Assembly (NCBI GenBank): GCA_026004735.1
Contig: BPJS01000001.1
Location: 2,356,001-2,420,000 of the forward strand
Direction: 5' to 3'
From: Isosphaeraceae bacterium
GTDB lineage: Bacteria; Planctomycetota; Planctomycetia; Isosphaerales; Isosphaeraceae
Length of the DNA stretch: 64,000 bases
Shown piece by piece: positions 7,871-15,434 of the stretch. Below the pieces are notes generated by a model that saw only the letters and a program-made list of their open reading frames with translations, was not told where the DNA came from and ran no database searches. The translations under genes and the position numbers were made by a program. How positions within the stretch are numbered: the stretch's first letter is position 1; the number at the start of each line of letters is the position of its first letter.

Positions 7871-8770
7871 TCAGAGGCCATCGGCGCTCCGGCTCCTTGG
7901 CTTCGGAATGTCGGTTACTAGCTTACCCGAGCGGAGGATCGAAATCGTTCCCGTCGATTGCGAGATGCAGATGGCGATAGCCCCAGTTGCCGCCGTGATC
8001 CCCGCCGCCGCTTCGTGCCGAGCGCCGAGTCCGCCGGAGAGCCGCTCGATCGGGCGATCCGACGGACTCAGATACCGCGCCGCCGCCAGCAGCACGCCAT
8101 CGCCCCGCACGACAAACGCCCCATCGAGCGAAGAAAACTCCTTGATTGTCTCCTCGAGCGCTGGGTCCAGCACGTTCCGTTCGGCCTCCGGATAGCCGTG
8201 GAACGGATTGATCACCAGTTGGCGGCTTCGGGCCAGCACGGCCTGCTCGTCGCCCAGGACGAACAACGCACCGACCGGGCGTCCCTCACGGCCCTCCAGA
8301 GAAAGCTCCGTCGCCAGCCGTACCAGCCGCTCAAAGACCGGCGCCCGGATGTCGGCCGGCAGCGGCTCGGTCGAGCCGGCCGAAAACAGCTCGAGTTCCT
8401 GCCCCAAATCGAGCACGAGCATCGAGTCCAACGCCGACGAGCCAGGTAACCCCGTCAAACAGACCACCCGATCGCCGGCCCCCACGTGCCCCTCAACGGC
8501 GGCCATCAAAATCGCCAGCTTGACCTGACCGACCCGCGTCAACGCCACATCCGGCACCCGGATCACCGCACATTGCTCGCCCCAACCCTCTGGCACGTGC
8601 AGCGGCTCCCGTCGCGAGACCAGCAGCGTCCGAAATCCCACATCGCCCACCAGATCGGCCAGCGCCTCGTCGGCCTCCATCACATCAGCATATAAGACCA
8701 CGACCCGCGCCCCGCTCTCCCGGGCCACCGCATGCGCATGCCGGACCAGACACCGCGTCAGTGGGTTCAT
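7871..8770 (-). CDS. Diadenylate cyclase, DacZ-like architecture
   Basis: Predicted to make the second messenger c-di-AMP from two ATP. In the 299-aa product the C-terminal DisA_N domain (about residues 163-285) shows VGALFVLGD, the DGA motif at 216-218 (LDGAFVVRGDG) and GARHEAAAGIT at 249-258, where the family normally has an RHR-type motif; here it is RHE. The N-terminal part (1-130), with RVVVLYAD and GDRVVCLTGLPG, resembles a pyruvate-kinase C-terminal-like alpha/beta domain, the layout of archaeal DacZ. No membrane helices are seen, unlike CdaA. The start at 8770 is chosen because its ATG overlaps the stop of the upstream gene (ATGA), indicating translational coupling. A start six codons earlier is possible. 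Function is inferred from the motifs; the altered third motif leaves activity uncertain. Confidence 0.85.
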   Translation of the reverse strand: MNPLTRCLVRHAHAVARESGARVVVLYADVMEADEALADLVGDVGFRTLLVSRREPLHVPEGWGEQCAVIRVPDVALTRVGQVKLAILMAAVEGHVGAGDRVVCLTGLPGSSALDSMLVLDLGQELELFSAGSTEPLPADIRAPVFERLVRLATELSLEGREGRPVGALFVLGDEQAVLARSRQLVINPFHGYPEAERNVLDPALEETIKEFSSLDGAFVVRGDGVLLAAARYLSPSDRPIERLSGGLGARHEAAAGITAATGAIAICISQSTGTISILRSGKLVTDIPKPRSRSADGL

Positions 8771-9798
8771 GGCGCCTCCGCCGGCCACTCGAGAGCCAGG
8801 TTGCGCATCCCAAAATTGTCCCGGCGCGCTGGTTCATCCCTCGTTCCCTGCTGCTCAAGCCGCAGCCGGTTTCCCTCCGTCCGCAACACCCCCTCCGGAA
8901 TCGACAGCCGAATACGCTGCCACTGGTCCCCGCCTCGCTTAAGTGCTGTGTTCAAGTCCGCCAGCCGAACCCCGTTGAGCCAGACCGCCGTCCGAAGCTG
9001 CCCCTGCCGCACCAGCGCCGCCAACGGCATCGGAGCCTCCATCCCGACCAGCTGCACCACATCGGCCGTCAACCACGCCGGTCCCGTGGGCACCGCGTCC
9101 AGCTCAAAACGCCGCTCCAGCCAATCGGACTCGGCAGCCACAGGATCCAGATCGGGCACGTCCCGATCTCCCAGATGGTGCGCGTGAGGATCGACCACCA
9201 GCCGACGCACCGACCCCAGTTCCTCGAGTTGCCGCAGCCGACTGCGTGCCACCGTCAGCCGACCTAGATACGGCACGTCGATCACCACTTCGCCCCGATC
9301 AGCCGCACGCAGCACACCCTCGACCCGATCCGGTCCTCGCCCTGGGATCTCTTCGAACGGCTCAAACTCAGCACGAACCCACCGCCCCTCCACCGCCACC
9401 GCCCTGGCCTCCCCCCGGCGTAACTCCACCCACGCCAGCTCCTCCCAACGCAACTCCAGCGCAGAGCCCCCCTCCCAGGCCATCCGCAACCCGTTGCGAT
9501 CGCCACCGACAATCCGCCCATAAAGCCGATCCCCCGACCGCCGCGCAACGACATCCCGCTGGGTGTCCCCGGGACCGATCACCTCTCGATCCTCCAGGAT
9601 CAATTTCCCCACCACGGCCCGATCCACCCCGATCGATCCGCCTTCCGGCAAACGCACCCAGACGGACGTCTCATCCAACCCCTCGAGCCAGCCCGTCAAC
9701 CGACCGCCCCCGGCCAACTCCATCATGCCAAGAGGCAACCCGACCGCCCCCACCCCGTCACCGCCCCCGATGACCAGACTCAGCAACAATCCGACCAT
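8767..9798 (-). CDS. Exported protein of unknown function, coupled to the diadenylate cyclase gene
   Basis: A 343-aa protein. The chosen start, MVGLLLSLVIGGGDGVGAVG, gives a short hydrophobic export signal; an upstream frame extension of 60 codons is low-complexity (YDGGRYDGGPGG) and unlikely. The body is almost all beta-strand, with three repeats of the type LTGWLEGLDETSVWVRLPEG, DRLYGRIVGGDRNGLRMAWE and RVEGVLRAADRGEVVIDVP, each a small barrel-like unit of about 50 residues. The C-terminal third (VQLVGMEAPMPLAALV, then TAVWLNGVRLADLNTALKRG) looks like a second beta domain such as a carbohydrate-binding or NPCBM fold. No enzyme motif is seen. The stop overlaps the start of the cyclase gene, so the two are co-translated; why an exported protein is tied to c-di-AMP synthesis is not known. 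Confidence 0.75.
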   Translation of the reverse strand: MVGLLLSLVIGGGDGVGAVGLPLGMMELAGGGRLTGWLEGLDETSVWVRLPEGGSIGVDRAVVGKLILEDREVIGPGDTQRDVVARRSGDRLYGRIVGGDRNGLRMAWEGGSALELRWEELAWVELRRGEARAVAVEGRWVRAEFEPFEEIPGRGPDRVEGVLRAADRGEVVIDVPYLGRLTVARSRLRQLEELGSVRRLVVDPHAHHLGDRDVPDLDPVAAESDWLERRFELDAVPTGPAWLTADVVQLVGMEAPMPLAALVRQGQLRTAVWLNGVRLADLNTALKRGGDQWQRIRLSIPEGVLRTEGNRLRLEQQGTRDEPARRDNFGMRNLALEWPAEAP

Positions 9799-13545: not shown

Positions 13546-13893
13546 ATGAAACTGATCCTCGCGGTGATCCAGCCGACGAAGCTTGAGGCTGTCAAGAACG
13601 CCCTGGCTGAAGTTGAGGTTTATCGTCTGACGGCGATCGACGTTCAGGGCTTTGGCCGGCAAAAGGGCTATTCCGAGGTCTATCGTGGCCAGGAATTCTC
13701 GGTCAACTTGCTCCGGAAGATCGAACTCCAGATTGCCGTCAATGAAGACTTCGTCGAGCCGACGGTCAACGCAATTATTGCGGCTGCCCGAACTGGGCCC
13801 GAGGGCCAGATTGGCGACGGCAAGATTTTCATTCTGCCGCTGGAGGACTGCATTCGGATTCGCACCGGAGAGCGCGGTCCCGAGGCCATCTAG
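13546..13893 (+). CDS. glnK: PII nitrogen regulatory protein with Phe at position 51
   Basis: A 115-aa trimeric signal protein that senses 2-oxoglutarate and ATP/ADP and binds targets such as Amt. MKLILAVIQPTKLEAVKNAL, the T-loop GFGRQKGYSEVYRGQEF and the signature TGPEGQIGDGKIFILPLEDC leave no doubt about the family. In the T-loop, Tyr46 is kept but position 51, the Tyr that GlnD uridylylates in proteobacteria, is Phe (codon 13696-13698), and position 49, Ser in cyanobacterial PII, is Gln. Regulation by covalent modification at these sites is therefore unlikely. The amt gene follows after 98 bases, so GlnK is the natural name although glnB cannot be excluded. Control of ammonium uptake is inferred from this linkage. 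Confidence 0.95.
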   Translation: MKLILAVIQPTKLEAVKNALAEVEVYRLTAIDVQGFGRQKGYSEVYRGQEFSVNLLRKIELQIAVNEDFVEPTVNAIIAAARTGPEGQIGDGKIFILPLEDCIRIRTGERGPEAI

Positions 13894-13991
13894 CCGTTCG
13901 CCTCGAAGGCCGGCGTGCGCGAATCGCTGGGTGCCGGCTATGCCAAGAGACGTATTTCGTTTCCCTGTCCCTTGACGAGGATCCTCTCCCG

Positions 13992-15434
13992 ATGAAAAAA
14001 ACGCCGATTCCGTTTCTGCTGCTGGCCGCGTTGGCGCTGGCCGCTTTGTTTTTGAAAGGGTCGTCCGCGGCTCCTGAGGCAAATGGCGAGGTCAACGCGG
14101 GCGACACGGCGTGGATGTTGACCGCCTCGGCGCTGGTGCTTCTGATGACGCCGGGTCTCTCGTTCTTTTACGGGGGCATGGTCCGTTACAAGAATGTCGT
14201 CTCGACGATGCTCCAGAGCGTCATCGCCCTGGGGATCATCAGCCTGCTCTGGGTGGTCGTCGGGTTCAGTCTGGCTTTTGGCGATTCGATCGGTGGGATT
14301 ATCGGCAATCCGCTCACCTTCTTCATGTTCCAGAACGTGGGCGACGCAACGGCAAAACTCGGGTCGACCGGCGGGCTCGCTCTCTCGGTCCCCCTGCTTG
14401 TCTTCGCGATGTTCCAGCTCAAGTTTGCGATCATCACGCCCGCGTTGATCACCGGCTCGTTCGCCGAGCGGGTTCGCTTCTCGGCGTATCTATTGTTCAT
14501 GTGTCTTTTCAGCCTCGTCATTTACTGCCCGTTGGCACATATGACCTGGCACCCGGATGGGTTGTTCTTCCAGTGGGGTGTCAAGGACTTCGCGGGTGGT
14601 ACGGTCGTTCACATGTCGGCTGGACTGGCCGCGCTGGCGGGGGCGATTGTGCTCGGTCAACGCACGAGCCATCGCAAGCAGGAAGCCCATCCCCCGGCCA
14701 ACATTCCGTACGTCCTGCTGGGTACCGGCATGCTCTGGTTTGGCTGGTTTGGCTTCAACGCCGGTAGTGCCGTGGCCGCGAGTGGGCTGGCCGCCTCGGC
14801 CTTTGCCACGACCAACACGGCTTCGGCGGCGGCCATGCTCGGCTGGATCTTTTTTGACTGGATGCGGGGGGTGAAGCCGTCGGCTCTCGGAGCTTGCATC
14901 GGAGCCGTCGTCGGACTGGTTGCGATCACCCCGGCAGCCGGCTTCGTCACCGTGCCGCATAGCATCTTCATCGGTCTGGTTGCCGGTGTGATCTCCAACC
15001 TGGCCGTTCAGCTTCGCACGAAAAGCAAGCTCGACGACACCCTGGACGTCTTCCCCTGCCACGGCGTCGGCGGCATGGTCGGCATGATCATGACCGGTAT
15101 CTTCGCGGTCGAAGGCACCAACGCGGACGGTACTCCGAAGGGCGATGCGGGCTTGTTCTACGGCCAGTTCGCTCAATTCATTGGCCAGTGCAAAGCCTTG
15201 GTGATTGTCGCCGTCTTCTCCTTCGTGGCTTCGCTGATCCTCTACAAGCTGGTCGACCTGATCATCCCGCTTCGGGTCACCGAGGAAGAGGAAGAGCTGG
15301 GTCTGGACCTCACCCAGCACGGCGAGAAGGCCGTCTCGTTGGGCAGCCTGCTTGCCAACGGTAACGGCCACGCCCACGGCAACGGCCAGGCGGCCGCGTC
15401 AGCGGCCGAGCAGCCGGTTCCGGTTAGCCACTGA
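13992..15434 (+). CDS. amt: Ammonium transporter, Amt/MEP/Rh family
   Basis: A 480-aa inner-membrane ammonium channel. An N-terminal signal-like helix is followed by GDTAWMLTASALVLLMTPGL and SFFYGGMVRYKN, the start of the Amt fold with 11 membrane helices. The twin pore histidines are in GGTVVHMSAG (about residue 214) and DVFPCHGVGGMVG (about residue 357). The C-terminal tail (LRVTEEEEELGLDLTQHGEK) is the conserved cytoplasmic segment that contacts PII, followed by a Gly/His/Ala-rich extension (NGNGHAHGNG). GAGGATCC precedes the ATG. It forms an operon with the upstream PII gene, and a hairpin at 15479-15512 follows. Confidence 0.96.
   Translation: MKKTPIPFLLLAALALAALFLKGSSAAPEANGEVNAGDTAWMLTASALVLLMTPGLSFFYGGMVRYKNVVSTMLQSVIALGIISLLWVVVGFSLAFGDSIGGIIGNPLTFFMFQNVGDATAKLGSTGGLALSVPLLVFAMFQLKFAIITPALITGSFAERVRFSAYLLFMCLFSLVIYCPLAHMTWHPDGLFFQWGVKDFAGGTVVHMSAGLAALAGAIVLGQRTSHRKQEAHPPANIPYVLLGTGMLWFGWFGFNAGSAVAASGLAASAFATTNTASAAAMLGWIFFDWMRGVKPSALGACIGAVVGLVAITPAAGFVTVPHSIFIGLVAGVISNLAVQLRTKSKLDDTLDVFPCHGVGGMVGMIMTGIFAVEGTNADGTPKGDAGLFYGQFAQFIGQCKALVIVAVFSFVASLILYKLVDLIIPLRVTEEEEELGLDLTQHGEKAVSLGSLLANGNGHAHGNGQAAASAAEQPVPVSH

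Follow-up and report, generated by a model that had tools for sequence, protein, structure and literature searches.

How might a c-di-AMP synthase be connected to the cell envelope of a planctomycete? The nucleotide has been described chiefly in Gram-positive bacteria and for its part in osmotic signalling. The question is raised by a stretch of 64,000 nucleotides of an Isosphaeraceae bacterium (contig BPJS01000001.1, positions 2,356,001 to 2,420,000; hereafter the window), in which a gene for a putative diadenylate cyclase directly follows one for an exported protein. An earlier note, made from the letters of the window, had suggested that the two genes form an osmotic or envelope-stress system.

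Organisation of the gene pair

The pair and its junction comprise the following features:

7871..8770, minus strand: DacZ-type diadenylate cyclase of 299 aa (start ATG at 8770, stop at 7871-7873)
8767..9798, minus strand: exported beta-rich protein of 343 aa, recognised by matches to relatives and by a family profile
8767..8770, minus strand: ATGA in the sequence, a 4-nt overlap between the end of the exported gene (stop TGA, 8767-8769) and the start of the cyclase
8775..8779, minus strand: GGAGG, a ribosome-binding-like sequence 4 nt 5' of the cyclase ATG

The overlap of the two genes, already pointed out in the earlier note, could be confirmed, and from this organisation we infer that they are co-transcribed. 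Elsewhere in the window, positions 13546-15434 hold a gene for a P-II regulator followed by one for an ammonium transporter, an ordinary pair.

The cyclase and its third motif

Within the cyclase, two domains and two motifs were located:

8387..8749, minus strand: DacZ_P, N-terminal probable sensor domain (residues 8-128; Pfam PF21755)
7922..8302, minus strand: DAC catalytic domain (residues 157-283; Pfam PF02457)
8117..8125, minus strand: DGA motif (residues 216-218), with D216 and G217 invariant in alignments
8012..8020, minus strand: RHE in place of RHR (residues 251-253), with R251 and H252 invariant and E253 invariant only within the subfamily

The proposed assignment to DacZ is supported by both domains and by the predicted fold. 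PF02457 matched with 76.4 bits against a cut-off of 27 (E 1.7e-21), and PF21755 with 66.3 bits against a cut-off of 27.4 (E 2.6e-18). In the AlphaFold model (pLDDT 84.7), the DAC half matches CdaA, CdaM and DisA; the best 50 fold matches were all DAC domains, with no PK_C structure among them, and in a sequence alignment to the PDB the enzyme pairs with CdaA-type cyclases. With NCBIfam NF041371, the equivalog model of haloarchaeal DacZ, the cyclase reaches 120.7 bits of the required 430, and its scores with the remaining NCBIfam models are below their cut-offs as well. The protein has neither an export segment nor a membrane segment. Archaeal DacZ or CdaZ (DacY), for instance of Haloferax volcanii, is alike in joining a DacZ_P or PK_C-like N-terminus to DAC and in having no membrane segment, but the reported neighbour of H. 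volcanii dacZ is mscS, and that of the window cyclase is the exported beta protein (PMC6741144). DacZ relatives in Planctomycetales were noted in 2019, when proteins from planctomycetes, one of them from Isosphaera pallida, were already placed near DacZ (PMC6741144). CdaA, CdaS, CdaM and DisA have the DAC fold and the motif positions in common with the window cyclase but differ from it in their N-terminal domains. A survey of DAC architectures was reportedly made by Galperin in 2023.

The third residue of the motif is E253, versus R in the full RHR motif of CdaA and DisA. This could mean that the enzyme lacks activity, or that its product is another one, and that it regulates the other DacZ of the genome. 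Replacement of the whole RHR by AAA abolishes the activity of DisA-type cyclases and of CdaS, the third residue alone not having been probed (PMC3328451, PMC4568413), and the genome does contain a second, ordinary DacZ. However, D216, G217, R251 and H252 are invariant in alignments across distant phyla, and it is only the third position that varies. RHE is found in all 28 aligned orthologs from Isosphaeraceae and from family f4, while DacZ at large keeps R and H and has E, I, M, R, H, Q, A, N, V, W, K, L or Y after them; these residues were surveyed in 80 loci of a genome collection and in another 40 from planctomycetes, and, as RHE was one of the two patterns used to scan the collection, the frequency of E is biased and the variety of the other residues is not. 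Haloarchaeal DacZ takes part in this freedom, with RHH in two annotated dacZ genes on Haladaptatus plasmids (L233 2809-3615 and L234 1306-2112). Since the third residue varies freely across DacZ, RHE is not a sign of inactivity; judging by the alignments, it is a signature of the lineage and not the loss of an active site. The motif singled out in the earlier note is real, without being special, and a lack of activity or a regulatory function of this enzyme seems improbable to us.

Phylogeny and other DAC proteins of the genome

In a maximum-likelihood tree, rooted for drawing only, the window enzyme falls together with those of other Isosphaeraceae (support 100/99), and the next group (100/97) consists of f4 and of sequences labelled Phycisphaerales, Planctomycetota SZAS-5 and Myxococcales. 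The wide clade that encloses them contains Nitrospinota, Thermodesulfobacteriota, Verrucomicrobiota and Phycisphaerae. SQST is present in the window enzyme and in nearly all of its close kin, and SEST in most of the wide clade. An archaeal origin of the cyclase found no support, its nearest relatives being bacterial. RHE also occurs in verrucomicrobial DacZ proteins with a separate place in the tree (L141, L148, L149, L152, L157 and L167), mostly with an M24 peptidase gene 3' of the cyclase gene (Pfam-checked in L148).

Three proteins of the genome match DAC. Far from the RHE enzyme, which is the second DacZ of the genome, lies an RHW DacZ (G000:C1:522274) that shares its domain order and keeps DGA and RH. 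The two differ in sequence (about 40% identity over the best-matching part), in neighbourhood and by a deep split in the tree, where a long branch carries the RHW copies as a set of their own; the third residue is W in 20 of 20 such copies read, versus E in the window enzyme. The third protein, of 488 aa (C1:581180; L003 490-1956), keeps DGA, has no recognisable RHR, remains just under the Pfam cut-off for DAC when scanned alone, and is possibly a degenerate or divergent cyclase. A c-di-AMP phosphodiesterase could be among the three DHH-family proteins of the genome.

Conservation of the pair in Isosphaeraceae

When gene neighbours were compared, the tie between cyclase and exported protein that had been drawn from this single locus held throughout the family. 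The RHE cyclase was found in 32 of 45 family genomes and the exported protein, by its family profile, in 43; the two genomes without the latter are incomplete assemblies, one of them with a mere piece of the cyclase at a contig end. In each of the 30 family genomes whose contigs permit a reading, the exported gene lies directly upstream of the cyclase and on its strand; in one further genome (G013), the two genes are at the ends of different contigs. The pair is also adjacent and co-oriented in an f4 genome (G039), and two f4 genomes have no exported gene upstream of the cyclase. Intergenic gaps range from -4 to 159 nt, with the 4-nt overlap in 8 of 24 relatives and 20 nt or less in 17 of 24.

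The flanks of the pair differ, with at least four contexts. Many genomes have on the left what we read from the sequence as a PIG-L-like deacetylase gene and on the right a convergent gene of about 546 aa; the left-hand neighbour in the window and in G011 is a porin gene, and their right-hand gene is a different one; in G039 the pair is flanked by a PAS-GAF-receiver-like protein to the left and by ruvB to the right. Since the pair stays intact while both flanks change, it moves or stays as a unit. Twelve family genomes contain the exported gene but no RHE cyclase; the gene is then often found between the same outer neighbours, so that the cyclase has been lost or inserted precisely there.

These data also bear on a simpler explanation, in which the cyclase is an active c-di-AMP synthase that borrows a constitutive promoter through shared transcription without being functionally linked to the envelope. 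The existence of the exported gene on its own, both in those 12 genomes and in other families, would fit such an arrangement, as would the variable gaps and the situation in f4, where ruvB comes after the cyclase and two genomes have no exported gene upstream. A neutral pairing should, however, sometimes break, and among the 30 readable genomes it did so in none, even with both flanks changing. We consider shared transcription alone a serious but unlikely explanation.

Two observations concern the surroundings of the pair. Downstream of the RHE cyclase, ruvB lies on the same strand in the f4 loci L087, L088 and L090. Four planctomycete families (L088, L090, L087, L099, L226, L227 and several Isosphaeraceae) have a PAS-GAF-receiver-like protein of 570-600 aa whose gene is divergent from that of the exported protein or of the cyclase, or lies close by.

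The exported partner

Two parts of the exported protein could be delimited:

9739..9798, minus strand: hydrophobic, signal-peptide-like N-terminal segment, weak in the sequence of the window copy, with clear signal peptides in orthologs
8776..9567, minus strand: conserved part (residues 78-341), small beta barrels and a C-terminal beta sandwich according to the matches of relatives and an ortholog model

That the partner is an exported beta protein, as the earlier note had it, is borne out by its orthologs, which are about 600 aa long, carry clear signal peptides and, in the model of one of them (pLDDT 89.7), are nearly all beta; the signal peptide of the window copy is weak, with a start at 9798 and no positive n-region. 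Together with the repeats in the sequence, this model suggests to us that the ortholog combines small beta barrels with two sandwiches, one concanavalin-like and one at the C-terminus. Of these, the window copy retains the first barrel and the C-terminal region, whereas about 250 middle residues, including the concanavalin-like domain present in orthologs, are gone. Compared with the orthologs, the gene at 8767-9798 thus shows a domain-sized deletion.

The 343-aa protein gave no significant match in Pfam or NCBIfam; as a name for the family, Pfam offered only weak Laminin_G_3, CBM-like and PH matches, none of them clear. A Foldseek search of the PDB with the ortholog model returned local concanavalin- or galectin-like matches (TM about 0.55 by target), without a whole-chain fold match or an enzyme assignment. 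The exported partner, a beta protein of several domains, evolves fast, and members of its family occur in other planctomycete families with no adjoining DacZ. Decay of the orthologs, as flagged in-frame stops might have indicated, was discarded, the stop in the one checked (G014) being the gene's own end.

Neighbours of related cyclases in other phyla

What is new in this analysis is that relatives of the cyclase in other phyla adjoin genes of protein quality control, namely HtrA, or ClpB with RpoH:

L161, L163-L165, L169-L171, L173, L180: Nitrospinota-type loci, HtrA upstream
L143, L144, L146, L151, L154, L174, L176, L177, L179: Thermodesulfobacteriota-type loci, HtrA downstream
L137, L140, L145, L150, L155, L158, L160, L162, L178: RpoH/DacZ/clpB loci (the contig of L160 ends before clpB)

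HtrA, with a trypsin and two PDZ domains, is encoded directly upstream of DacZ, mostly at about 32 nt, in the nine loci of the first group, and lies downstream, in first or second position, in the nine of the second. In Syntrophales and related loci, ClpB is encoded directly 3' of DacZ in eight cases, usually at 8-24 nt, a gene for an RpoH-type sigma factor is divergent from DacZ, and in several cases an M48 (HtpX-type) peptidase gene is near. In Thermosulfurimonas dismutans and one Nitrospinaceae genome, the neighbouring HtrA is the only strong trypsin-type match. The members of each group are related, so that these are about three lineages and not 26 or 27 independent cases. Their cyclases are about 40-45% identical to the window enzyme, which, unlike them, does not itself adjoin an HtrA/DegP protease or an RpoH/ClpB locus, and these links do not prove the same role in the window. 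An HtrA link across Planctomycetota was not retained: HtrA is seen only in L166, and the neighbourhoods of most other planctomycete members of the wide clade are varied. No report of a DacZ-HtrA or DacZ-ClpB link was found in searches of a collection of open-access papers.

The same neighbours are relevant to the possibility that the cyclase serves DNA damage or general cytoplasmic stress, following a logic like that of DisA, with an incidental exported partner. The ClpB and RpoH genes seen in Syntrophales and others belong to the cytoplasmic heat-shock response, and ruvB lies directly downstream in three f4 genomes; yet HtrA, the HtpX-type peptidases and the exported partner belong to the envelope, and in the family from which the window comes no DNA-repair gene was noticed beside the pair. 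We regard this explanation as quite unlikely.

Proposed role

Taken as a whole, the genomic data lead us to favour, tentatively and at a little under even chances, an active c-di-AMP synthase that would be co-expressed with an envelope component and serve adaptation to envelope or protein stress. The domains, the invariant D, G, R and H, the DAC fold, the 30 of 30 pairing, the HtrA, ClpB and RpoH neighbours and the placement in the tree speak for it. Against it stand the 12 family genomes that retain the exported gene but not the cyclase, the occurrence of that gene without a cyclase in other families, and the varied neighbours of most other planctomycete DacZ in the wide clade. It also counts against this reading that no c-di-AMP riboswitch was found in the whole genome or in the region, which leaves this kind of element out as a target of the cyclase.

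In the reading that we favour, the cyclase would be a catalytically competent second DacZ converting ATP to c-di-AMP, probably translated from one mRNA with the exported envelope beta protein. The operon might thereby raise a local or stress-specific pool of c-di-AMP when the envelope component is made, with the DacZ_P domain as the likely input, and c-di-AMP would act on cytoplasmic targets of turgor or stress, apart from the other DacZ. Contact between the two proteins would not be required, the cyclase having neither an export nor a membrane segment. The osmotic or envelope-stress system proposed in the earlier note is plausible as an interpretation, and the envelope-stress idea is better supported than before, since related cyclases elsewhere adjoin HtrA and ClpB/RpoH.

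If this is true, a conserved second synthase with an exported partner, and with relatives linked to HtrA and ClpB/RpoH, would suggest a branch of c-di-AMP signalling for protein quality or envelope stress in Gram-negative-type cells, of which no report was found among the open-access papers searched. It is conceivable, albeit doubtful, that a clade of bacterial DacZ cyclases is such an undescribed branch of envelope and protein quality control, with operons containing HtrA, ClpB/RpoH/HtpX or, in Isosphaeraceae, a dedicated exported beta protein. In one planctomycete locus (L168), an exported PDZ protein is encoded directly upstream of DacZ, and its beta repeats resemble those of the partner in the window.
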